A stretch of 64,000 nucleotides of DNA from Eledone cirrhosa (lineage: Eukaryota > Mollusca > Cephalopoda > Octopoda > Eledonidae): positions 65,382,547 through 65,446,546 of the forward strand of contig OZ024744.1 of NCBI GenBank assembly GCA_964016885.1. Direction: 5' to 3'. Shown here piece by piece: positions 5,906 to 64,000 of this stretch; position 1 is the first letter of the stretch; each line of letters opens with the position of its first letter. The position numbers were made by a program, and so were the translations under genes. The notes beneath the pieces were generated by a model, which saw only the letters and a program-made list of their open reading frames with translations, was not told the DNA's origin and did not search any database.

Positions 5906-6054
5906 CTCAAATGATTTATATGCACTAATAGAATCTGAAGGATTTGTCTGCTCTTGGGAAGAATTGGAATTGCTTTCTACAAGTGATACTGATGTAATGG
6001 AAGACAAAGGTCTGGATGTGCTTTGCTGCCAACCTCGATTTCTCACACCAGTTC
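5906..6054 (-). CDS. MRCK: MRCK exon: Ser-rich C-terminal tail
   Basis: 149 nt bounded by 'ttgtag' and 'gtaagt', entered with two codon bases and leaving on a codon boundary. It follows the exon at 7606-7756 in frame. The roughly 49 residues include RPLSSITSVSLVESNSNSSQ and are rich in Ser, Thr, Asn and Gln. MRCK proteins normally end in a long, low-complexity Ser-rich tail after the CRIB motif, which this fits. There is no catalytic or binding motif; the segment is probably disordered and open to phosphorylation. Confidence 0.8.
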
Positions 6055-7605: not shown

Positions 7606-7756
7606 CATTATAGTGAGAATCTCCACTTGCACTACTGCTACTGGTGCTTGCCGTTGGCTTTCCACTGGCACCACACATCTGTTCTTGCAACTGCTTCATA
7701 TTAGGTTGCATTAGATTGCGGACCTTTTGAATTTGTTCTTCAGACTTGGCACCAGG
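7606..7756 (-). CDS. MRCK: MRCK exon: tail immediately after CRIB
   Basis: 151 nt from 'tactttcag' to 'gtaaat', starting in phase 0 after the CRIB-B exon and leaving one base (AAT G). It encodes a short helical, Gln-rich stretch (EEQIQKVRNLMQPNMKQLQE), then a Ser/Thr/Ala-rich segment ending ASGDSHYN. Known MRCKs have a comparable non-conserved region between CRIB and the C-terminus. The 20-nt G-run on the plus strand lies 43 nt upstream of the acceptor. Confidence 0.85.
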
Positions 7757-8420: not shown

Positions 8421-8535
8421 TTGTCTTGCTCCAGTAGGCAGACCTATCAATGCTTGCATGCCTTGATCTGGGCCCAGATGTGCAATGTGACTGAAGTTGA
8501 TTGGTAATGAAATAATACGGGATCTTCTCTCCATC
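8421..8535 (-). CDS. MRCK: MRCK exon carrying canonical CRIB motif (CRIB-B)
   Basis: 115 nt from 'ctttccag' to a 'gtaatt' donor. It takes one base to finish a codon begun upstream (phase 2) and ends on a codon boundary. The 38 residues contain ISLPINFSHIAHLG, a full match to the CRIB pattern IS-x-P-x2-F-x-H-x2-H-x-G, followed by PDQGMQALIGLP, which resembles the stretch after CRIB in vertebrate MRCK. CRIB motifs bind GTP-loaded Cdc42 or Rac and bring MRCK to membranes. The exon at 11837-11935 is a diverged duplicate with the same entry phase. Confidence 0.92.
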
Positions 8536-8796
8536 CTGGAAAGAAGAACTGGATATGAGATTCTGATTCTCTTTCTTACACACACAAACACAAGCTAATT
8601 TACCTCAGTTACTATTAATTAATGTTACACTATTAGATGGCATTAGGTGGTTAATATTAGATGTTCTGTTAGAATTTGTAAATGTGAAGCAATGTCTTTG
8701 TTATGACAGGAAACATTTTTTTATACTACTAAATAGAGACAACTTTTAGTGAGAATGCTATGCATGGATGAATTTATTTTCTTCCTCTGTACACAT

Positions 8797-8830
<34 letters not shown>

Positions 8831-8894
8831 GTATAACACTGGAGGGTATATCCGTAGTAGTAGAGCACTCAGTCCATGAACGAGTTTGGTAGCA

Positions 8895-9000
8895 GTAGTT
8901 CCACAACAGTTAGTTCACCATACCGAGAATAAACCTTTGAAGATCCGCATAAGGTGAAACAATTGTTCTCGGTATGCTGAACTAACTGTTGAGGAACTAC
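8895..9000. repeat. Foldback: 35-bp inverted repeat, 36-nt loop
   Basis: 8895-8929 and 8966-9000 are reverse complements at 33 of 35 positions. (AT)n tracts flank the structure at about 8802-8827 and 9001-9017. It lies in the intron between the two CRIB exons, about 360 nt upstream of CRIB-B in transcript order. Confidence 0.8.
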
Positions 9001-9015
9001 TATATATATATATAT

Positions 9016-9240
9016 AATCATCATTTAGCGTCTATTTTCCACGCTACCATGGGTTATATATCATCATCATTTTACATCTGCTTTTCCCTGCTTGCAAAGG
9101 TGGGATGGGTCTTATTCAGCACAGCATCTCTCCACTTGTCATATATATATATATATATTAGTTCTGTATGAGCAAGACAACAGGACAACTTGTCTGACAC
9201 ATGTTAGCATGGAAAAAATGTAAAATGATGATGATTATAT
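9016..9240. repeat. Fragments of LINE/SINE 3' tail in both orientations
   Basis: Minus-oriented pieces at 9016-9055 and 9062-9135 ('(atc)n-ttttacatctgcttttccc') and a plus-oriented piece at about 9175-9235 ('gtatgagcaagacaacagga' ... 'gatgatgat'), separated by (TA)n. Confidence 0.55.
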
Positions 9241-9549
9241 ATATATATATTCATACACACACATACACACATTATTCAAGAGTTGTGAGGTCCAATTTTC
9301 TGCAGGTATTTCTGGCCACTTCTATCTTTAAGAGTCTAAGAGTGTATTGCTCAATTTTATAAACTACTACTTAATAATTGACTGTTATTACTTACATTTT
9401 CTATGTGTTTGGGACGCTCATATTTTTAAATTTCAAACTCTCCTAGCACTTCGTAAATCAGTTTTTATATATATGAAATTGACAGCCGTAACAATGAATA
9501 CTTAATACCAGAATAGAGTTTAAATATATTTTATGTCTAACCACAATAA

Positions 9550-10085
9550 GTTACTTAGGCGATTAACTTGGCAGTGGAGGAGAATGCACTGAGAGTGTGT
9601 TACCCAGAATCAGAATAGGCTGGAAGAAGTTTAGAGACTTGATGCCTCAGCTGACAACAAAAGGCTTCTCTCTCAGAGCCAAGGGTAGACTATATGATGC
9701 CTGTATGTGAATTGCAATGGCAGTGGAACATGGGCCTTAACCACAGAAGATCTGCAGAGACTAGAGAGAAATGAAGTGAGTGTGCTCCAAATGGTGTGTA
9801 ATGTTATTGTGTGTTAATGACATAGCATTAGTGAACTGAGAGGAAAACTTAGCGTAAGCGGAATTGGATGTAAAGTGCAAAGGGGAAGACTGCACTGGTA
9901 TGGACATGTGATGCATATGGAGGATAGCAACTGCATAAAAAAATGCAGAGCAATCCTAATGGCTGGGACCCTAGAAAAAGGTAGACCCAGAAAGACATGG
10001 GATGAAGTAGAAACTAAGCCTTACAACTGAGATGACAAAGGTTCAAGAAAGCTGGCGCTATGCTGTGATGATGAAGACCTAGCCA
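9550..10085 (+). pseudogene. LINE remnant (type 1), end of reverse transcriptase ORF
   Basis: Broken frames translate to the conserved end of a non-LTR retrotransposon polyprotein: 'SLRAKGRLYDAC'-like, 'AVEHGP', 'EDLQRLERNEVSVLQMVCN', 'RGRLHWYGHVMHMED' and 'RKTWDEV'. The same region is better preserved at 59422-59673. Frame changes and stops mark it as dead. It lies antisense to MRCK in an intron. Confidence 0.7.
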
Positions 10086-10104
10086 GAAGCATATAATATA
10101 ACCT

Positions 10105-10560
10105 GACCCATCCATGAACCCCTCCCCTTCCTCCCACTAACACCCACCACCATCTATCCTCCCCACTACACCTGGCACCCATGTCCCTTCCAGAACCAGC
10201 CCATAACTAACCCCCTCTAAAGACTTACATATCCCCACCATTGTCACAGCTACTCTACTCCTTCACATGCCACTACCACCCATTACCCCCTCACTATCCC
10301 CATACCTATCTATATAAAGCACATCCCCTATGCCACTAAATACCCTCACCTCACACACTAATCAGTTACCCCTATCCCTTACCACCTATCTCTCCATCAT
10401 GCCCCCACCTCTACTATATTGACCAGATCCCTCACACCACTACATCTCCATACATTAATCTACCACCCCTACCCTTTACTCATTGCCCTGCCAAATCACC
10501 AGACATTAATAACTTCATACCTATCTCCCTCTCCAGAGCTAAGAGGGCTCTATTGTTGGG
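10105..10560 (+). repeat. G-poor, C-rich tract, probable LINE 3' UTR
   Basis: About 450 bp almost without G on the plus strand ('cccctccccttcctcccact' and similar), placed directly after the LINE ORF remnant. A shorter similar tract occurs at 33460-33565 before another LINE tail, which supports a 3' UTR origin. Confidence 0.5.
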
Positions 10561-10975
10561 TTTAAGACCAACAGCCTCTCTAGTGATGATACCATGAAAA
10601 TGCACCTGTTACACTCCATAAGGGAGGTTGGTAACAGGAGGATGCCCTGCTGTAGAGACCATGCCTAAAAGAGTTGAAAGAACCCTTTAGTTGTGTCAGA
10701 AACACAACCTCTCTATATTGTCTTATTGATAATATCCCTAGTGCTGGTGATCTACACTAAAGCACCCAGTACACGCTGTAAAGTGGTTGGTGTTAGGAAG
10801 AACATCCAGCTGTAGAAAGCTTGTCAAACAGAGTTGAAAGGACCCTTTCGTTTGTGTCAAAAGACAACTTCACCCCTGCACACGATATGACCATATGTAA
10901 GTGGGATACAGGCCCCTTGGCCTGTCTGGGAGGTCAGTGGCCCTGCTTCAATACTGGCTTGGTCTATGTAAACCC
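10560..10975 (+). repeat. LINE 3'-UTR-like blocks
   Basis: 'cacgctgtaaagtggttggt' and 'gttaggaagaacatccagct' match the 3' region shared by LINE and SINE copies here, repeated in two degraded blocks (about 10600-10670 and 10760-10870). Confidence 0.55.
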
Positions 10976-10977
10976 AT

Positions 10978-11226
10978 CTAACCGGCTTGTTATATTTCTA
11001 ATGAAAGACACTGCATATAATTTTCAAATAATTTTTTTAATAAACAATTTGGAAGGATTTAGTAAAATAAGAAACTTATTATAAAGCAGGTGTTTGGTAT
11101 AGAATATAAGGTTCTTACATAAGATTATAGTGGTAAATTTTTAGATTGATATAAACAGTTTAAAATAAACTGTTTTATATCATGAATTATGGGTGGTTTC
11201 AAACAGGTTGGTATAAAAAGGTTTAA
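10978..11226 (+). mobile_element. TTAA MITE, family B
   Basis: The interior 'ggaaggatttagtaaaataa' and the right end 'ggttggtataaaaaggtttaa' match family B at 52425-52663. The left end is degraded. Confidence 0.5.
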
Positions 11227-11836
11227 GAAATAATTATCTTTCTTGTTCTTAGCACAAGATCAGTTTAATATCAGCGCTAAATATCATTCAGTAAAATTAA
11301 AGTTTTGCTGATTTGAAATTTTATTGATATATTTTCTAATTAAGGCCATCATTAACTGCCAAATTGTAAATAAAATCTTTATATGTATAAAAAGAAAGAT
11401 ATTTAATTATAAATCTTTACAATTTAGAATTTAGAATAAAAAAAAAAAAAGGGGGATTAGAAAAAAATACCAAAACATGCAAATGGTTATTAAATTATGA
11501 AAATGAATGTAAAACAAAAAAGATGTTAAAGATAATTTGTTGTGCGAAATAATAAAGTGGAAGCATGAGGAAGCTAGAGGAGAGAGAAAAAAGGCTGGAA
11601 TTTACATAAAAAATAAAATAAAATAAAATAAAATAAAATTAATAAAAAGGAGCATGCTGTCTAGAAATGAGAAAAAGAGAGGTGCAAAAGAAAACTTATA
11701 ATAGACGAAATAAAACTAAAGCTTGACTGAATAGCAGCAGAGCCCACCAATATAATAGTAATAATAAAGTATAATAAATTATAAAAACAAATTTTGCTTT
11801 TAAGATTTACTTGCAGCTGAGAGTAACTATGCTTAC
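11227..11836. other. Unannotated intron sequence
   Basis: A-rich, with a short (AAATA)n run at about 11612-11640. No feature recognised up to the CRIB-A exon. Confidence 0.35.
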
Positions 11837-11935
11837 AGATTGGCTACTGCAGGATTGGCTACCTGGTCGGGACGCATATGAGCAACATGGCTGAATGAAA
11901 AGGGTGCTGAAATGTCACGTGAACGTCGTTCGCTC
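11837..11935 (-). CDS. MRCK: MRCK exon carrying second, diverged CRIB motif (CRIB-A)
   Basis: 99 nt between 'attcaaccag' and a good 'gtaagc' donor, phase 2 at both ends, so it can be included or skipped without changing frame. It begins SERRSRDISAPFSFSHVAHM, against MERRSRIISLPINFSHIAHL in CRIB-B: a clear exon duplicate. All CRIB positions are kept except the final Gly, which is Arg (HMRPDQ). It would place two CRIB motifs in tandem about 33 residues apart. If the donor is not used, reading continues one codon to TAA, giving a truncated tail. The coding sense is clear; use of the exon in mRNA is inferred. Confidence 0.85.
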
Positions 11936-15781: not shown

Positions 15782-18700
15782 AGGAATGGGGACGAATGGG
15801 AAGAGAGAAGGTGGTTGTAGGGAGGAATGGAAGAGAGAAGGTGGTTGTAGGGAGGAATGGAAGAGAGGTGGTGGTTGTAGGGAGGAATGGAAGAGAGAAG
15901 GTGGTTGTAGGGAGGAATGGAAGAGAGAAGGTGGTTGTAGGGAGGAATGGAAGAGAGAAGGTGGTTGTAGGGAGGAATGGAAGAGAGGTGGTGGTGGTAG
16001 GGAGGAATGGAAGAGAGGTGGTGGTGGTAGGGAGGAATGGAAGAGAGGTGGTGGTTGTAAGGAGGAATGGAAGAGAGAAGGTGGTTGTAGGGAGGAATGG
16101 AAGAGAGAAGGTGGTTGTAGGGAGGAATGGAAGAGAGAAGGTGGTTGTAGGGAGGAATGGAAGAGAGAAGGTGGTTGTAGGGAGGAATGGAAGAGAGGTG
16201 GTGGTGGTAGGGAGGAATGGAAGAGAGGTGGTGGTGGTAGGGAGGAATGGAAGAGAGGTGGTGGTGGTAGGGAGGAATGGAAGAGAGGTGGTGGTGGTAG
16301 GGAGGAATGGAAGAGAGAAGGTGGTTGTAGGGAGGAATGGAAGAGAGGTGGTGGTTGTAGGGAGGAATGGAAGAGAGGTGGTGGTTGTAGGGAGGAATGG
16401 AAGAGAGGTGGTGGTAAGGAGGAATGGAAGAGAGAAGGTGGTTGTAAGGAGGAATGGAAGAGAGAAGGTGGTTGTAGGGAGGAATGGAAGAGAGAAGGTG
16501 GTTGTAGGGAGGAATGGAAGAGAGGTGGTTGTAGGGAGGAATGGAAGAGAGGTGGTGGTGGTAGGGAGGAATGGAAGAGAGAAGGTGGTTGTAGGGAGGA
16601 ATGGAAGAGAGAAGGTGGTTGTAGGGAGGAATGGAAGAGAGAAGGTGGTTGTAGGGAGGAATGGAAGAGAGAAGGTGGTGGTAGGGAGGAATGGAAGAGA
16701 GAAGGTGGTGGTAGGGAGGAATGGAAGAGAGAAGGTGGTGGTAGGGAGGAATGGAAGAGAGAAGGTGGTTGTAGGGAGGAATGGAAGAGAGGTGGTGGTT
16801 GTAGGGAGGAATGGAAGAGAGAAGGTGGTTGTAGGGAGGAATGGAAGAGAGGTGGTGGTGGTAAGGAGGAATGGAAGAGAGGTGGTGATTGTAGGGAGGA
16901 ATGGAAGAGAGGTGGTGGTAAGGAGGAATGGAAGAGAGAAGGTGGTTGTAGGGAGGAATGGAAGAGAGAAGGTGGTGGTAAGGAGGAATGGAAGGGAGAA
17001 GGTGGTTGTAGGGAGGAATGGAAGAGAGAAGGTGGTGGTAAGGAGGAATGAAAGAGAGGTGGTGATTGTAGGGAGGAATGGAAGAGAGAAGGTGGTGGTA
17101 GGGAGGAATGGAAGAGAGGTGGTGGTGGTAGGGAGGAATGGAAGAGAGAAGGTGGTGGTAAGGAGGAATGGAAGAGAGGTGGTGATTGTAGGGAGGAATG
17201 GAAGAGAGGTGGTGGTAAGGAGGAATGGAAGAGAGAAGGTGGTTGTAGGGAGGAATGGAAGAGAGGTGGTGGTTGTAGGGAGGAATGGAAGAGAGAAGGT
17301 GGTTGTAGGGAGGAATGGAAGAGAGGTGGTGATTGTAGGGAGGAATGGAAGAGAGAAGGTGGTTGTAGGGAGGAATGGAAGAGAGAAGGTGGTTGTAGGG
17401 AGGAATGGAAGAGAGAAGGTGGTTGTAGGGAGGAATGGAAGAGAGGTGGTGGTTGTAGGGAGGAATGGAAGAGAGAAGGTGGTTGTAGGGAGGAATGGAA
17501 GAGAGGTGGTGGTGGTAGGGAGGAATGGAAGAGAGGTGGTGGTTGTAGGGAGGAATGGAAGAGAGAAGGTGGTTGTAGGGAGGAATGGAAGAGAGGTGGT
17601 GGTTGTAGGGAGGAATGGAAGAGAGGTGGTGATTGTAGGGAGGAATGGAAGAGAGAAGGTGGTTGTAGGGAGGAATGGAAGAGAGGTGGTGGTTGTAGGG
17701 AGGAATGGAAGAGAGGTGGTGGTAAGGAGGAATGGAAGAGAGAAGGTGGTTGTAGGGAGGAATGGAAGAGAGGTGGTGGTGGTAGGGAGGAATGGAAGAG
17801 AGGTGGTGGTTGTAGGGAGGAATGGAAGAGAGAAGGTGGTTGTAGGGAGGAATGGAAGAGAGGTGGTGGTTGTAGGGAGGAATGGAAGAGAGGTGGTGAT
17901 TGTAGGGAGGAATGGAAGAGAGAAGGTGGTTGTAGGGAGGAATGGAAGAGAGGTGGTGGTGGTAGGGAGGAATGGAAGAGAGGTGGTGGTTGTAGGGAGG
18001 AATGGAAGAGAGGTGGTGGTTGTAGGGAGGAATGGAAGAGAGGTGGTGGTTGTAGGGAGGAATGGAAGAGAGAAGGTGGTTGTAGGGAGGAATGGAAGAG
18101 AGGTGGTGGTTGTAGGGAGGAATGGAAGAGAGAAGGTGGTTGTAGGGAGGAATGGAAGAGAGAAGGTGGTTGTAGGGAGGAATGGAAGAGAGAAGGTGGT
18201 TGTAGGGAGGAATGGAAGAGAGGTGGTGGTTGTAGGGAGGAATGGAAGAGAGAAGGTGGTTGTAGGGAGGAATGGAAGAGAGGTGGTGGTGGTAGGGAGG
18301 AATGGAAGAGAGGTGGTGGTTGTAGGGAGGAATGGAAGAGAGAAGGTGGTTGTAGGGAGGAATGGAAGAGAGGTGGTGGTTGTAGGGAGGAATGGAAGAG
18401 AGAAGGTGGTTGTAGGGAGGAATGGAAGAGAGAAGGTGGTTGTAGGGAGGAATGGAAGAGAGAAGGTGGTTGTAGGGAGGAATGGAAGAGAGGTGGTGGT
18501 TGTAGGGAGGAATGGAAGAGAGGTGGTGGTGGTAGGGAGGAATGGAAGAGAGGTGGTGGTTGTAGGGAGGAATGGAAGAGAGGTGGTGGTGGTAGGGAGG
18601 AATGGAAGAGAGGTGGTGGTTGTAGGGAGGAATGGAAGAGAGAAGGTGGTTGTAGGGAGGAATGGAAGAGAGGTGGTGGTTGTAGGGAGGAATGGAAGAG

Positions 18701-21700
18701 AGGTGGTGGTTGTAGGGAGGAATGGAAGAGAGAAGGTGGTTGTAGGGAGGAATGGAAGAGAGGTGGTGGTTGTAGGGAGGAATGGAAGAGAGGTGGTGGT
18801 AAGGAGGAATGGAAGAGAGAAGGTGGTTGTAAGGAGGAATGGAAGAGAGAAGGTGGTTGTAGGGAGGAATGGAAGAGAGAAGGTGGTGGTAGGGAGGAAT
18901 GGAAGAGAGGTGGTGGTGGTAGGGAGGAATGGAAGAGAGGTGGTGGTGGTAGGGAGGAATGGAAGAGAGGTGGTGGTTGTAGGGAGGAATGGAAGAGAGG
19001 TGGTGGTGGTAGGGAGGAATGGAAGAGAGGTGGTGGTTGTAGGGAGGAATGGAAGAGAGAAGGTGGTTGTAGGGAGGAATGGAAGAGAGGTGGTGGTTGT
19101 AGGGAGGAATGGAAGAGAGGTGGTGGTTGTAGGGAGGAATGGAAGAGAGAAGGTGGTTGTAGGGAGGAATGGAAGAGAGAAGGTGGTTGTAGGGAGGAAT
19201 GGAAGAGAGAAGGTGGTTGTAGGGAGGAATGGAAGAGAGGTGGTGGTTGTAGGGAGGAATGGAAGAGAGGTGGTGGTGGTAGGGAGGAATGGAAGAGAGG
19301 TGGTGGTTGTAGGGAGGAATGGAAGAGAGGTGGTGGTGGTAGGGAGGAATGGAAGAGAGGTGGTGGTTGTAGGGAGGAATGGAAGAGAGAAGGTGGTTGT
19401 AGGGAGGAATGGAAGAGAGGTGGTGGTGGTAGGGAGGAATGGAAGAGAGAAGGTGGTTGTAGGGAGGAATGGAAGAGAGAAGGTGGTTGTAGGGAGGAAT
19501 GGAAGAGAGGTGGTGGTTGTAGGGAGGAATGGAAGAGAGGTGGTGGTTGTAGGGAGGAATGGAAGAGAGGTGGTGGTGGTAGGGAGGAATGGAAGAGAGA
19601 AGGTGGTTGTAGGGAGGAATGGAAGAGAGAAGGTGGTGGTAGGGAGGAATGGAAGAGAGGTGGTGGTTGTAGGGAGGAATGGAAGAGAGGTGGTGGTTGT
19701 AGGGAGGAATGGAAGAGAGGTGGTGGTGGTAGGGAGGAATGGAAGAGAGGTGGTGGTTGTAGGGAGGAATGGAAGAGAGGTGGTGGTGGTAGGGAGGAAT
19801 GGAAGAGAGGTGGTGGTTGTAGGGAGGAATGGAAGAGAGAAGGTGGTTGTAGGGAGGAATGGAAGAGAGGTGGTGGTGGTAGGGAGGAATGGAAGAGAGA
19901 AGGTGGTTGTAGGGAGGAATGGAAGAGAGAAGGTGGTTGTAGGGAGGAATGGAAGAGAGGTGGTGGTTGTAGGGAGGAATGGAAGAGAGGTGGTGGTTGT
20001 AGGGAGGAATGGAAGAGAGGTGGTGGTGGTAGGGAGGAATGGAAGAGAGAAGGTGGTTGTAGGGAGGAATGGAAGAGAGAAGGTGGTGGTAGGGAGGAAT
20101 GGAAGAGAGGTGGTGGTTGTAGGGAGGAATGGAAGAGAGGTGGTGGTTGTAGGGAGGAATGGAAGAGAGGTGGTGGTGGTAGGGAGGAATGGAAGAGAGG
20201 TGGTGGTTGTAGGGAGGAATGGAAGAGAGGTGGTGGTGGTAGGGAGGAATGGAAGAGAGGTGGTGGTGGTAGGGAGGAATGGAAGAGAGAAGGTGGTTGT
20301 AGGGAGGAATGGAAGAGAGAAGGTGGTTGTAGGGAGGAATGGAAGAGAGGTGGTGGTAAGGAGGAATGGAAGAGAGGTGGTGGTTGTAGGGAGGAATGGA
20401 AGAGAGGTGGTGGTTGTAGGGAGGAATGGAAGAGAGAAGGTGGTTGTAGGGAGGAATGGAAGAGAGGTGGTGGTTGTAGGGAGGAATGGAAGAGAGGTGG
20501 TGGTTGTAGGGAGGAATGGAAGAGAGGTGGTGGTGGTAGGGAGGAATGGAAGAGAGGTGGTGGTTGTAGGGAGGAATGGAAGAGAGGTGGTGGTGGTAGG
20601 GAGGAATGGAAGAGAGGTGGTGGTTGTAGGGAGGAATGGAAGAGAGGTGGTGGTGGTAGGGAGGAATGGAAGAGAGAAGGTGGTTGTAGGGAGGAATGGA
20701 AGAGAGAAGGTGGTTGTAGGGAGGAATGGAAGAGAGACAGTGATGGTTGTAGGGAGGAATGGAAGAGAGACAGTGATGGTTGTAGGGAGGAATGGAAGAG
20801 AGGTGGTGGTTGTAGGGAGGAATGGAAGAGAGAAGGTGGTTGTAGGGAGGAATGGAAGAGAGGTGGTGGTGGTAGGGAGGAATGGAAGAGAGGTGGTGGT
20901 GGTAGGGAGGAATGGAAGAGAGAAGGTGGTTGTAGGGAGGAATGGAACAGAGGTGGTGGTTGTAGGGAGGAATGGAAGAGAGGTGGTGGTTGTAGGGAGG
21001 AATGGAAGAGAGAAGGTGGTTGTAGGGAGGAATGGAAGAGAGGTGGTGGTGGTAGGGAGGAATGGAAGAGAGGTGGTGGTTGTAGGGAGGAATGGAAGAG
21101 AGGTGGTGGTTGTAGGGAGGAATGGAAGAGAGAAGGTGGTTGTAGGGAGGAATGGAAGAGAGAAGGTGGTTGTAGGGAGGAATGGAAGAGAGACAGTGAT
21201 GGTTGTAGGGAGGAATGGAAGAGAGACAGTGGTGGTTTTAGGGAGGAATGGAAGAGAGACAGTGATGGTTGTAGGGAGGAATGGAAGAGAGACAGTGGTG
21301 GTTGTAGGGAGGAATGGAAGAGAGGTGGTGGTTGTAGGGAGGAATGGAAGAGAGGTGGTGGTTGTAGGGAGGAATGGAAGAGAGAAGGTGGTTGTAGGGA
21401 GGAATGGAAGAGAGGTGGTGGTTGTAGGGAGGAATGGAAGAGAGGTGGTGGTTGTAGGGAGGAATGGAAGAGAGAAGGTGGTTGTAGGGAGGAATGGAAG
21501 AGAGGTGGTGGTTGTAGGGAGGAATGGAAGAGAGGTGGTGGTTGTAGGGAGGAATGGAAGAGAGAAGGTGGTTGTAGGGAGGAATGGAAGAGAGAAGGTG
21601 GTTGTAGGGAGGAATGGAAGAGAGGTGGTGGTTGTAGGGAGGAATGGAAGAGAGGTGGTGGTTGTAGGGAGGAATGGAAGAGAGACAGTGATGGTTGTAG

Positions 21701-21880
21701 GGAGGAATGGAAGAGAGGTGGTGGTTGTAGGGAGGAATGGAAGAGAGACAGTGATGGTTGTAGGGAGGAATGGAAGAGAGGTGGTGGTTGTAGGGAGGAA
21801 TGGAAGAGAGACAGTGGTGGTTGTAGGGAGGAATGGAAGAGAGACAGTGATGGTTGTAGGGAGGAATGGAAGAGAGACAG
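15782..21880. repeat. Giant 30-bp purine-rich minisatellite, about 200 units
   Basis: The unit is GGAGGAATGGAAGAGAG followed by AA or GT, then GGTGGT and TGTAG or GGTAG. Most units are 30 bp; some are 27 bp ('ggtggtaagg') and some 33 bp ('agacagtgatgg', mainly after 20728). All lengths are multiples of three and no unit carries a stop in the relevant frames, so both strands stay open for more than 2000 codons: VVVGRNGREK repeats on plus, LFHSSLQPP repeats on minus. Higher-order repeats exist: 19411-19860 is followed by a copy with 14 of 15 units of the same subtype. It sits in the MRCK intron between the CNH/linker exon and CRIB-A; the pre-mRNA would be pyrimidine-rich here. I regard the open frames as non-coding. 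Confidence 0.97.
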
Positions 21881-25089: not shown

Positions 25090-25177
25090 TAATCTCTGTG
25101 TTCTTCAGATAGACAATGTGTTGTGAATCTAGATTACTGAACAAATTCAAGGAGCCATCTTTGCAAATTGGTTTGGT
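25090..25177 (-). CDS. MRCK: MRCK exon: end of CNH domain
   Basis: 88 nt from 'atatttcag' to 'gtaagt', entered in phase 0 and leaving one base. It encodes TKPICKDGSLNLFSNLDSQH then IVYLKNTEI, aligning with the vertebrate MRCK stretch where a 'PLN-EGTLNLL' strand is followed by 'LIYFKNK'. CNH is a beta-propeller-like domain used for protein interaction. A long (CU)n tract sits about 65 nt upstream of the acceptor. Confidence 0.9.
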
Positions 25178-42739: not shown

Positions 42740-43700
42740 AACCAGAAGGCCCACGAGGGGAAATACCCTGCTTACACTGTGCAGGACAAAGACTTCAAGG
42801 CCGTGTTCGATGGGCAGCGATGGGTTGTTGAGTGGTACTGGAAGGGAGAACCACCAACACTGAAGACCAAAGTGGGCTGCTATCAACACACATTGAAGGG
42901 AAACATTAGGAGCGAGTTCGAGCGAGAGGTAGAGAGATGGATTGAGGAGGGCATACTGCTTCCCTGGAAGAGTATTGCCATTAATGGCGGTGGCGCAACC
43001 CACAAAGAACAAGGTGAGGCCGGTGCTGGACTTTCGGGAGCTGAACGAGCACGTGTCATGCCACACGGGTGGCGAGGTCACGGATGTCTGTGGGGAAACC
43101 CTGCGTGAGTGGAGACGCATGACGGGGGGTTCAGCAATCGTAGATCTAAAGTCGGCATACTTGCAATTGCATATAGATGAGAAGCTCTGGCAGTATCAGC
43201 TGGTCAGGGATAAGGGCCGGACATATTGCCTGATCAGGCTCGGTTTCGGGCTGAGCTCCGCACCGAAGATCATGGCGGCAGTCCTCAAGACCATTCTGGG
43301 AAAGGCCGACAAGATGAAGAGGGCCACTCCTATATTGACGACATCCTAGTGGACGAGTCTGTGGCGTCGGCGGCGGAGCTCACGAACCATTTACAGGGGT
43401 ATGGACTGGCTGTGAAGCCGTCAGAAGCATTGGAGGGAGGAGCCGCGCTGGGACTTAGGCTACGGCGAGACAGGACGGGCGTCTTGGTATTCCAGAGGGG
43501 AAATGAGGTTCCAGAACTGGGCCCAAGTATGAGTAGGCGGGAGCTTTTCTCGGTGTATGGAAAGTTGGTGGGTCACTACCCAGTTACTGGGTGGCTCCGG
43601 ACGGCATGCAGCTATGTCAAGAGACAAGCGGGAGGAGTGACTTGGAGTGACAGAGTGGGAGAGAGGACGGTGGCCATGATGCAGGAGATCGTGGGGAGGG
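42740..43700 (+). pseudogene. Retrotransposon reverse transcriptase
   Basis: Reading order: 'WIEEGILLPW', 'KVRPVLDFRELNEHV' (about 43010), 'AIVDLKSAYLQLHIDEKLWQ' (about 43135), 'RLGFGLSSAPKIM' (about 43240), then the YIDD active site at 43331-43342. The frame changes at about 42970 and 43325, just before YIDD. The set of motifs fits the Ty3/Gypsy class; I cannot name a clade. Confidence 0.88.
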
Positions 43701-43719
43701 TTAAGGCCGACGACCCAGT

Positions 43720-44120
43720 GCGGGGACGCTGGTATGTTCCCAAATCACAGAGCGGGACCGTATGGTGCGATGCCAGTAGCATAGCGCTGGGTGTCACGTT
43801 GGAGATAGGAGGTGTTGAGGTCGAGGATGCAGCCTGGCTTAAGAAGAAGGACGACTGCAACCACATCAATGTGGCCGAACTGAACACGGTGTTGAGAAGG
43901 GTGAACCTCGCCGTGAGGTGGGGACTGCGCACCATCAAGATACGCACCGACTCGGTTACTGTACTTGGATGGGTAAGATCAGTGCTCACCAGTGAGAAGA
44001 GAGTGCGAACGAGAGGGGCGGCGGAGATGCTGATAAAGTGCCGCCTGGGAACTTTAGGAGAGCTGGCCACCGACCCAAGGCTGAGCGTAGTTTTCGTGCC
44101 CTTAGAGAAAAATAGGGCGG
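43720..44120 (+). pseudogene. Retrotransposon RNase H
   Basis: Same frame as YIDD. Catalytic acidic residues are visible as WCDAS (Asp at 43769), VAELNTV (Glu at 43877) and IRTDSVTV (Asp at 43949); 'NRADVLTRV' near 44115 supplies the last Asp region. All key residues are kept. Confidence 0.85.
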
Positions 44121-44199
44121 ATGTCTTAACTAGGGTGAAGAAAGCCTGGATGGAAGCGCCGGAGGAGGTAGAAGATGAGATAGCTGCCATGTGTCGGCT

Positions 44200-45121
44200 G
44201 ACCGAGTCAGATCTGAAAGGGTTGCATGACATGCACCACATGGGAGTGGATAGGAGCCTGTTCCTAGCCAGGAGAATCGACTCGGACGTTAACAGACACA
44301 GTGTTCAAAGGGTGGTTAGAGGCTGCGTCCGATGTCAGTCCATTGATTCCGCCCCGAGTGTGCATGAAACGGGAAGCCTCCCGGTGGATCATGATTGGAA
44401 GCGATTGGCGGTGGATGTAACGCACTACCGACAGGGAACGTACCTCTCGATGGTCGACTGTGGACCAGGACGGATGGCGATATGGAGGGAGATGAAGACT
44501 GGAACGGCCGAGGAAATCATGCGGACGTTGAGAGGTGTTCTTGGAGCGGGGCCCTGTGGACGAACTGCTGATGGACAACAGCGCAGCGTTCCGCTCGGAG
44601 GTGCTGAGGGAGATGCTCGATGGATGGAAGGTGGACCGTTTCTTCAGGGCAGCGCACAGGCCGAGCGGGAATGGAATTGTGGAGCGAGATCACCGGACGA
44701 TCAAGGCAATGGCGGAGCGGGGCCACATCTCACCAATGGAGGCAGTGTTCTGGTACAACATGTCCCCTCGGGTCGGACAGGTCGAGGAATCGGTGCCACA
44801 CAGAGCAGTATTTAGATACGAGTGGCAGCACCCGTGCACCCCACCACAACGGCCAGTGGGGAGAGAGAGTGCATTCGTGCAGGTGGGCGAAGAAGTCTGG
44901 GTTAAGCCCCCAGATGTACGTTGCATATCTCAATGGGAAAGGGGAACGGAGTACCACGTCATGTCCTGGATGTCCGTAGAATCACTGTGTCAACGGACTC
45001 CGAGGAAGAGGAAACCAAAAGTACCGCCCCAACACTGCGGAGATCGCAAAGAAGTCGTAAACCACCAACCTGGACAGCAGACTTTCATATGCAGAAGGAC
45101 GAGGGGGAAATTGATCCTTGA
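44200..45121 (+). pseudogene. Retrotransposon integrase (DD35E), two frameshifts
   Basis: The HHCC zinc finger (LHDMHHMGVDRS ... CVRCQSID, about 44221-44345) precedes the catalytic core: Asp in AVDVTHY (44414), Asp in LLMDNSAAF (44574) and Glu in NGIVERDHR (44682), the last pair with 35 residues between them. The frame changes near 44540 between the two Asp, and again near 44930. The C-terminal tail ends in a basic 'LRRSQRSRKPP' segment before the stop at about 45121. Gene order PR-RT-RH-INT fits Ty3/Gypsy. Confidence 0.88.
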
Positions 45122-60104: not shown

Positions 60105-63100
60105 TGTATATGACTTGGTTTGCAAGGGAAGACCCATGGCCCTACATTCTTTTTAATTATTATATACGGCTTGGTTTGGAAGGGAAGACCAATGTCCATG
60201 GCCCTACATTCTTTTTTATTATTATATATGGATTGGTTTGGAAAGAAAGACCAATGTCCATGGCCCTACATTCTTTTGTATTATTATATGTGGATTGGTT
60301 TAGAAAGAAAGACTAATGTCCATGGCCCAACATTCTTTTATATTATTATATATGGATTGGTTTGGAAGGGAAGACCAATGTCCATGGTCCTACATTCTTT
60401 TATATTATTATATATGGATTGGTTTGGAAAGGAAGACCAATGTCCATGGCCCTACATTCTTTTATATTATTATATATGGATTGGTTTGGAAAGGAAGACC
60501 AATGTCCATGGCCCTACATTCTTTTTTATTATAATATATGCATTGGTTTGGTAGGGAAGACCAATGTCCATGGCCCAACATTCTTTTATATTATTATATA
60601 TGGATTGGTTTGGAAAGGAAGACCAATGTCCATGGTCCTACATTCTTTTATACTATTATATATGGATTGGTTTGGAAGGGAGAGCAATGTCCATGGCCCT
60701 ACATTCTTTTATATTATAATATATGGATTGGTTTGGAAAGGAAGACCAATGTCCATGGCCCTACATTCTTTTTTATTATTATATATGGATTGGTTTGGAA
60801 GGGAAGACCAATGTCCATGGCCCTACATTCTTTTATACTATTATATATGGATTGGTTTGGAAAGGAAGACCAATGTCCATGGCCCTACATTCTTTTATAC
60901 TATTATATATGGATTGGTTTGGAAAGGAAGACCAATGTCCATGGCCCTACATTCTTTTATACTATTATATATGGATTGGTTTGGAAAGGAAGACCAATGT
61001 CCATGGCCCTACATTCTTTTATACTATTATATATGGATTGGTTTGGAAGGGAAGACCAATGTCCATGGCCCTACATTCTTTTATATTATTATATATGGAT
61101 TGGTTTGGAAAGGAAGACCAATGTCCATGGCCCTACATTCTTTTATATTATTATATATGGATTGGTTTGGAAGGGAAGTCCAATGTCCATGGCCCTACAT
61201 TCTATTATATTATTATATATGGATTGGTTTGGAAAGGAAGACCAATGTCCATGGCCCTACATTCTTTTTTATTATAATATATGGATTGGTTTGGAAGGGA
61301 AGACCAATGTCCATGGCCCAACATTCTTTTGTATTATTATATATGGATTGGTTTGGAAAGAAAGACCAATGTCCATGGCCCTACATTCTTTTTTATTATA
61401 ATATATGGATTGGTCTGGTAGGGAAGACCAATGTCCATGGCCCAACATTCTTTTGTATTATTATATATGGATTGGTTTGGAAAGGAAAACCAATGTCCAT
61501 GGCCCTACATTCTTTTATATTATTATATATGGATTGGTTTGGAAAGGAAGACCAATGTCCATGGCCCTACATTATTTTATATTATTATATATGGATTGGT
61601 TTGGAAAGGAAGACCAATGTCCATGGCCCAACATTCTTTTATATTATTATATATGGATTGGTTTGGAAAGGAAGACCAATGTCCATGGCCCTACATTCTT
61701 TTATACTATTATATATGGATTGGTTTGGAAGGGAAGACAAATGTCCATGGCCCTACATTCTTTTATATTATTATATATGGATTGGTCTGGAAAGGAAGAC
61801 CAATGTCCATGGCCCTACATTCTTTTATATTATTATATATGGATTGGTTTGGAAGGGAGAGCAATGTCCATGGCCCTACATTCTTTTATACTATTATATA
61901 TGGATTGGTTTAGAAGGGAGAGCAATGTCCATGGCCCTACATTCTTTTATACTATTATATATGGATTGGTTTGGAAGGGAAGACCAATGTCCATGGCCCT
62001 ACATTCTTTTATATTATTATATATGGATTGGTTTGGAAAGGAAGACCAATGTCCATGGCCCTACATTCTTTTTTATTATAATATATGGATTGGTTTGGTA
62101 GGGAAGACCAATGTCCATGGCCCAACATTCTTTTGTATTATTATATATGGATTGGTTTGGAAGGGAGAGCAATGTCCATGGCCCTACATTCTTTTATACT
62201 ATTATATATATGGATTGGTTTGGAAGGGAAGACCAATGTCCATGGCCCAACTTTCTTTTATATTATTATATATGGATTGGTCTGGAAAGAAAGACCAATG
62301 TCCATGGCCCAACATTCTTTTATATTATTATATATGGATTGGTTTGGAAAGAAGACCAATGTCCATGGCCCTACATTCTTTTATATTATTATATATGGAT
62401 TGGTTTGGAAGGGAAGACCAATGTCCATGGCCCTACATTCTTTTATATTATTATATATGGATTGGTTTGGAAAGGAAGACCAATGTCCATGGCCCTACAT
62501 TCTTTTATATTATTATATATGGATTGGTTTGGAAAGGAAGACCAATGTCCATGGCCCTACATTCTTTTTTATTATAATATATGGATTGGTTTGGTAGGGA
62601 AGACCAATGTCCATGGCCCAACATTCTTTTATATTATTATATATGGATTGGTTTGGAAAGGAAGACCAATGTCCATGGCCCTACATTCTTTTATACTATT
62701 ATATATGGATTGGTTTGGAAGGGAAGACCAATGTCCATGGCCCTACATTCTTTTATACTATTATATATGGATTGGTTTGGAAAGGAAGACCAATGTCCAT
62801 GGCCCTACATTCTTTTATACTATTATATATGGATTGGTTTGGAAAGGAAGACCAATGTCCATGGCCCTACATTCTTTTATACTATTATATATGGATTGGT
62901 TTGGAAGGGAAGACCAATGTCCATGGCCCTACATTCTTTTATACTATTATATATGGATTGGTTTGGAAGGGAAGACCAATGTCCATGGCCCTACATTCTT
63001 TTATACTATTATATATGGATTGGTTTGGAAAGGAAGACCAATGTCCATGGCCCTACATTCTTTTATACTATTATATATGGATTGGTTTGGAAGGGAAGAC

Positions 63101-64000
63101 CAATGTCCATGGCCCTACATTCTTTTATATTATTATATATGGATTGGTTTGGAAGGGAAGGCCAATGTCCATGGCCCTACATTCTATTATATTATTATAT
63201 ATGGATTGGTTTGGAAAAGAAGACCAATGTCCATGGCCCTACATTCTTTTTTATTATAATATATGGATTGGTTTGGAAGGGAAGACCAATGTCCATGGCC
63301 CTACATTCTTTTATATTATTATATATGGATTGGTTTGGAAAGGAAGACCAATGTCCATGGCCCTACATTCTTTTATATTATTATATATTGATTGGTTTGG
63401 AAAGGAAGACCAATGTCCATGGCCCTACATTCTTTTATATTATTATATATGGATTGGTTTGGAAAGGAAGACCAATGTCCATGGCCCAACGTTCTTTTGT
63501 ATTATTATATGTGGATTGGTTTAGAAAGAAAGACTAATGTCCATGGCCCAACATTCTTTTATATTATTATATATGGATTGGTTTGGAAAAGAAGACCAAT
63601 GTCCATGGCCCTACATTCTTTTTTATTATAATATATGGATTGGTTTGGAAGGGAAGACCAATGTCCATGGCCCTACATTCTTTTATATTATTATATATGG
63701 ATTGGTTTGGAAAGGAAGACCAATGTCCATGGCCCTACATTCTTTTATATTATTATATATTGATTGGTTTGGAAAGGAAGACCAATGTCCATGGCCCAAC
63801 GTTCTTTTGTATTATTATATGTGGATTGGTTTAGAAAGGAAGACCAATGTCCATGGTCCTACATTCTTTTATACTATTATATATGGATTGGTTTGGAAGG
63901 GAGAGCAATGTCCATGGCCCTACATTCTTTTATACTATAATATATGGATTGGTTTGGAAAGGAAGACCAATGTCCATGGCCCTACATTCTTTTTTATTAT
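60105..64000. repeat. 62-bp tandem satellite, more than 60 units, runs off the window
   Basis: The unit contains GGATTGGTTTGGAAAGGAAG, ACCAATGTCCATGGCCCTAC and ATTCTTTTATATTATTATATA. The 62-bp period is not a multiple of three, so open frames pass through all three frames and produce a 62-residue cycle (for example WKGRPMSMALHSFILLYMDW); these are by-products. Variants (AAAGGA/AAGGGA, TATACT, TTTTTATTATAAT, TTTAGAAAG) form higher-order patterns: a rare 'tatgtggattggtttagaaa' unit recurs at about 60290, 63508 and 63820. It begins about 70 bp upstream of the acceptor of the 59982-60034 exon. Confidence 0.97.

Follow-up and report, generated by a model that had tools for sequence, protein, structure and literature searches.

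The 64,000-nt stretch of the Eledone cirrhosa genome analyzed here (contig OZ024744.1, positions 65,382,547 to 65,446,546; hereafter, the window) carries on its minus strand the C-terminal half of a gene for the kinase MRCK (CDC42BP), in which the exon for the canonical CRIB (Cdc42/Rac-binding) motif, exon B, is preceded by a further exon, exon A, encoding a second CRIB core. Eighteen exons with ag/gt boundaries, running from 53335 to 7606, could be joined into a single frame that stays open with or without exon A. The gene was assigned to MRCK because its C1, PH, CNH, and CRIB exons occur in order and are collinear with the C-terminal half of Octopus vulgaris MRCK. The O. vulgaris protein (P0001) aligned in order to 17 of the joined exons, all but A, and to one further exon downstream. 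The search for the N-terminal AGC kinase domain was confined to the window, where tblastn with this protein found no kinase exon. The same order of C1, PH, CNH, and CRIB is described for human and Caenorhabditis elegans MRCK, which in the available parts of these papers have one CRIB, at the C terminus (PMC3940853, PMC11634028).

A preliminary description of this locus had named the two exons as a pair and held that A could be spliced in or skipped without a frame change. Both points were confirmed when the exons were joined at the positions given in Table 1: the exon directly upstream of A (E15) ends in phase 2, A begins and ends in phase 2, and B leads from phase 2 to phase 0, in which the next exon begins, so that E15-B and E15-A-B both keep the frame. 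Exon A has ag and gt boundaries and contains no stop codon. Its donor scored 1.8 bits, level with the lowest of the 17 other exons, 14 of which scored 7.4 bits or more. Scanning all six frames with the core pattern IS.P.{2,4}F.H..H returned A and B and no third CRIB unit in the window, and no occurrence in 60 first-order Markov windows. The A peptide likewise matched the 2.98-Gb genome of the species at two places, A and B, by which a repeat family of the exon was rejected. The two cores have 16 of 24 residues in common; they agree at 35 of 48 first and second codon positions and at 9 of 24 third positions (pS 0.92, which is saturated; pN 0.24). Such a profile is that of an old duplicate maintained by selection.

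As the preliminary description had noted, the upstream copy keeps the CRIB core but carries Arg for the final Gly. Measured against the consensus I-S-x-P-x(2,4)-F-x-H-x(2)-H-V-G, in the form given by one paper available in part (PMC10234108), exon A retains I, S, P, F, H, and H and has M-R in place of V-G, so that the Arg falls on a consensus residue; exon B has L-G. Scored with the Pfam PBD family (PF00786; cut-off, 21.3 bits), B reached 23.6 bits, whereas A remained below the cut-off with 12.5 bits over 14 positions. Domain annotation can therefore hide exon A. The exons also differ in what follows the core. Exon B continues into a C-terminal extension and aligns, weakly by sequence (best E value, 0.005), with the CRIB and -GLP extension of the GTPase-binding domains of PAK4 and PAK1 (5upk, 2ov2, 1e0a). 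Exon A lacks this extension, and nine residues lie between its PDQ and B.

In a tree of 28 rows, the window and O. vulgaris formed a group with two listed proteins, P0002 and P0003 (local support, 1.000). The latter two comprise 1774 and 1759 amino acids encoded without introns, on contigs of at most 6545 and 5474 nt, whereas the window exons alone span about 47 kb; they were therefore read as spliced mRNA. Both contain A and B in series, with A ending at the matching joint, which bears out the tandem-CRIB kinase envisaged in the preliminary description. It also contradicts the idea that A and B are mutually exclusive exons providing two alternative single CRIBs. As tandem duplicates of one exon, they could have come to be used in that way, and a CAG/GT within A, after 11863, offers in principle an alternative donor that would give A a phase-0 end, as in B. 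However, this inner donor scored −3.2 bits against 1.8 for the donor of A, and the phase in which A itself ends does not fit the exon after B. We consider mutual exclusion highly improbable.

The A core was the same at 24 of 24 residues in the window, P0002, and P0003, Arg included; the B core of the window agreed with those of P0002 and P0003 at 21 of 24. In the stretch before A, 476 of 612 (P0002) and 468 of 607 (P0003) aligned residues matched the window. Sequence comparison thus indicates that A is real and constrained. In the octopods A might still be a decaying relic, not spliced or not binding, which would leave one working CRIB. O. vulgaris P0001 lacks A and is joined exactly at the exon joint, and the Arg for Gly, the weak donor, and the sub-threshold Pfam score would all suit such a relic. 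Decay is at odds, however, with a core that remains identical where B differs at three residues, with the open frame and splice sites of A, and with third positions that are saturated while residues are kept; this alternative appears quite unlikely.

We therefore regard it as probable that A is a genuine, long-conserved MRCK exon, a tandem duplicate of B used as an optional 33-residue cassette, which provides a weak second docking site tuning membrane recruitment. With A included, the end of MRCK would consist of CNH followed by the short, basic CRIB core of A and the full GTPase-binding domain of B. Exon A would be a weak auxiliary docking site for Cdc42 or Rac, because its basic ERRSR lead-in and the IS-P-F-H-H contacts are repeated but the C-terminal extension is absent. 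Together, A and B would be expected to have a higher avidity for membrane-bound Cdc42 or Rac-GTP and to bias the kinase to the membrane, and skipping of A would yield a single-CRIB kinase that is more strictly regulated. GTPase binding by A and its effect on recruitment are put forward by analogy with two published cases, each available to us in part. A peptide of ACK with the CRIB consensus, without the last 17 residues, bound Cdc42 at 4.8 µM, tabulated as 238-fold weaker (PMC5500802), and two tandem WASp CRIBs pre-localized a sensor to the plasma membrane (PMC10234108). From these results we infer that a weak auxiliary site could tune membrane recruitment.

Several observations weigh against this interpretation or soften its evidence. 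The Arg in place of the final Gly might abolish binding by A altogether. The contrast in Pfam scores is soft, since the single CRIB of P0001, scored in the full protein, reached 21.2 bits, just under the cut-off. A Pfam PBD search of the E. cirrhosa genome listed four places, all on other contigs, and missed both A and B; the exon pair is therefore easily overlooked by a domain search. The splice sites of A are not telling on their own: the weak donor would suit a regulated exon without proving regulation, because 18% of the GT dinucleotides on the strand score as high (for AG, 7.5%). The closest named relative, O. vulgaris, lacks A in its listed model, so that use of A in octopods might be rare; neither P0002 nor P0003 carries a species name. 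From the literature, the authors of the tandem WASp sensor suggest in the available text that membrane affinity of the piece is the cause of its localization (PMC10234108). In C. elegans, canal growth is reported, in the part available, to be only mildly affected by deletion of the last 58 residues, including the CRIB (PMC11634028).

Listed MRCK proteins were collected with the spliced window protein (best 120 of 1043 matches), the CRIB region of the chiton protein P0004 (42 matches), and P0053 (best 120 of 3767 matches) and were sorted with a relaxed CRIB pattern and the presence of [DE]LP after it. This gave 178 proteins in all, which are top-scoring matches rather than a random sample and among which 90%-identity clusters hide isoforms. 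The preliminary description had taken the family to be otherwise single-CRIB and the tandem arrangement to be a new design. Neither view could be upheld: 100 of the 178 had two CRIBs, vertebrate MRCK-alpha isoforms included, and 78 had one, and the layout of the window is predicted in other molluscs, a brachiopod, and annelids, with a mirror version in chordates. The extra CRIB lay upstream of the canonical one in 31 proteins and downstream in 68; P0044, with two CRIBs of which neither has the [DE]LP mark, was unclear. The mark was also absent from 4 of the 78 single-CRIB proteins (P0001, P0025, P0035, and P0041, the last of which stops after its upstream unit).

The exon pair, which the preliminary description had suggested seeking in other molluscs, is represented there by an upstream extra CRIB in 24 listed proteins of named molluscs. 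The remainder of the 31 comprised one brachiopod (Lingula), two annelids (Owenia and Ridgeia), and four proteins without a species name. In such lophotrochozoan models (e.g., Mytilus, Crassostrea, Haliotis, Liolophura, Lingula, Owenia, and Ridgeia), the extra core likewise stands right before the canonical one, after an RRFSFK segment. The window shares this layout, with the extra CRIB immediately upstream of the canonical one and in frame. The 15 other upstream units compared have Gly at the final position, whereas the three cephalopod units differ by their Arg. Cephalopod novelty was rejected on the strength of the other molluscs, Lingula, Owenia, and Ridgeia, and the arrangement of A and B looks like an old, little-described design. 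In P0033 from Owenia and in P0044, which bears no species name, a tail of the GMELL or GMGII type is retained after the first CRIB, in contrast to the molluscan upstream units shown; this suggests that the upstream copy may once have been a full domain.

All 68 proteins with a downstream extra CRIB came from named chordates (amphioxus, tunicates, and vertebrates), except for P0087, which bears no species name; many were isoforms of one species, and vertebrate MRCK-alpha isoforms were among them. The chordate MRCK-alpha tandem (LIS-P-NF-HVYHMT in vertebrates) is likewise isoform dependent; as in the window, the final Gly is absent from the five vertebrate extra units compared, where Thr takes its place. 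In chordates, however, the extra CRIB follows the canonical one, whereas in the window it precedes it. A single CRIB was found in 14 listed proteins of named molluscs, O. vulgaris among them, in all three hemichordates, and in the nemertean Lineus. Hemichordates were named among the best 120 of 3767 matches to P0053, and neither ecdysozoans nor cnidarians were.

A splice switch between one and two CRIBs, also proposed in the preliminary description, was borne out as far as gene models go. Ten species or crosses, represented in the lists by both kinds of model, were chosen for comparison; in their database gene models, the extra CRIB was inserted or absent at one joint. The variation fell at the upstream joint in Mytilus coruscus and Mya arenaria and at the downstream joint in two amphioxus sets, the gecko Heteronotia, and the amphibians Rhinophrynus, Eleutherodactylus, Spea, Aquarana, and Xenopus tropicalis. 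The O. vulgaris model without A belongs with this evidence. In the amphioxus models P0046, P0055, and P0061, DLPV was seen to be followed by a second CRIB, by an RGKRSFKK segment, or by nothing. Inclusion of A is documented by transcript-like sequences and its skipping by gene models, and skipping may be regulated in E. cirrhosa as well. Alternatively, A could be constitutive and the forms without it annotation misses, in which case MRCK would be a tandem-CRIB kinase with no switch. A is present in both of the transcript-like sequences grouping with octopus, the exon is highly conserved, and many of the forms without it are database gene models. On the other hand, the exon boundary is exactly where the models lacking the extra unit are joined in Mytilus coruscus, Mya arenaria, and O. 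vulgaris, and the donor of A is among the weakest of the gene. We consider constitutive inclusion rather unlikely and favor an optional cassette.

The origin of the extra units was addressed with a tree of 58 CRIB units over 24 columns, taken from 31 of the 178 proteins and the window. Deuterostome units were separated from lophotrochozoan units (88/88), chordate extra units grouped together (85/98), and so did molluscan extra units (100/54); none of these groupings was decisive. Topology tests were weak, given an alignment of 24 columns and a bootstrap still unsettled. A single clade of all upstream and downstream extra units was weakly rejected (approximately unbiased test, P = 0.04). A clade joining the molluscan upstream units to the downstream units (P = 0.275), one ancient duplication with different copies becoming canonical (P = 0.088), and a clade of all upstream units, absent from the best tree (P = 0.117), were not rejected. 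By position and tree, two independent origins are favored but not proven. At the position of the final Gly, all 3 cephalopod upstream units carry Arg, the other 15 upstream units Gly, and all 5 vertebrate downstream units Thr; Gly also occupies this position in all 3 amphioxus and tunicate downstream units and in all 32 canonical units. One reading, for and against which we see equal weight, is that an optional second CRIB was gained twice, upstream in lophotrochozoans and downstream in chordates, with the extra copy cut down or lacking the final Gly and kept for isoform tuning. The Gly would then have been lost independently in coleoids and vertebrates while the unit was conserved, and the result would be a convergent, splice-controlled switch between one and two CRIBs across animals.

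Two CRIBs in one protein have been described for Dictyostelium GnrC (PMC8847673) and, as CRIB1 and CRIB2, for CDC42EP1 (PMC10234108). Unlike the protein encoded here, these are not MRCK kinases, and an optional exon goes unmentioned in the available parts of these papers. Judged by titles and abstract openings, none of the publications among the matches listed describes tandem CRIBs in MRCK; a 2003 paper in Gene on MRCK-alpha splicing may already describe the vertebrate extra exon. Reviews, in the text available, show MRCK with a single C-terminal CRIB, and according to one of them the alternative splicing of MRCK has not been systematically characterized (PMC3940853, PMC8489921). Since MRCK is a kinase driving actomyosin, a second, isoform-optional CRIB extending from molluscs to vertebrates would, if true, add a regulatory layer that is overlooked by binding constants and sensors based on one CRIB. 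Laboratory animals and vertebrate MRCK-alpha isoforms would allow the layout to be tested directly.

Table 1. Exons of the E. cirrhosa MRCK gene in the window
Feature	Position	Strand	Remarks
C1-domain exons	53335-53020, 50594-50523	-	
PH-region exons	48349-48282, 46080-45953, 39343-39262, 38080-37940, 36468-36396	-	
CNH (citron homology) exons	33238-33176, 32195-32106, 31204-30881, 30389-30282, 29129-29049, 26410-26313	-	
Exon E14, after the CNH exons	25090..25177	-	Exon joining and P0001 alignment
Exon E15, directly upstream of A; KRRYSFKTRDDDRG segment	23852..23957	-	Out phase 2
Exon A, extra upstream CRIB core; SERRSRDISAPFSFSHVAHMRPDQVANPAVAN	11837..11935	-	99 nt, phase 2 to 2
Exon B, canonical CRIB and C-terminal GTPase-binding extension; MERRSRIISLPINFSHIAHLGPDQGMQALIGLPTGARQ	8421..8535	-	115 nt, phase 2 to 0; matches P0001
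Exon downstream of B	7606..7756	-	In phase 0
Next downstream coding exon (GTGVRNRGWQQ...)	5906..6054	-	P0001 alignment

The CNH family (PF00780) matched the E. cirrhosa genome at the site of CNH exon 31204-30881, and its matches were confined to this MRCK gene and one other place. Within the PH region, the donor of exon 38080-37940 is apparently GTTTGT, which is unusual for the gene; the joint is backed by the O. vulgaris protein. The intron before exon A contains about 203 copies of a 30-bp tandem repeat (15789-21876), which leaves open reading frames of up to ~2090 amino acids in several frames. At least 62 copies of a 62-bp satellite-like unit (60134-64000) form an array that runs to the end of the window, and a weak upstream coding match lies near it, at 60035-59982. 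On the plus strand, within the PH-region introns, an open reading frame of 533 amino acids (43214-44815) with a DUF7047 match and a sub-threshold reverse-transcriptase-like match is likely a retroelement.

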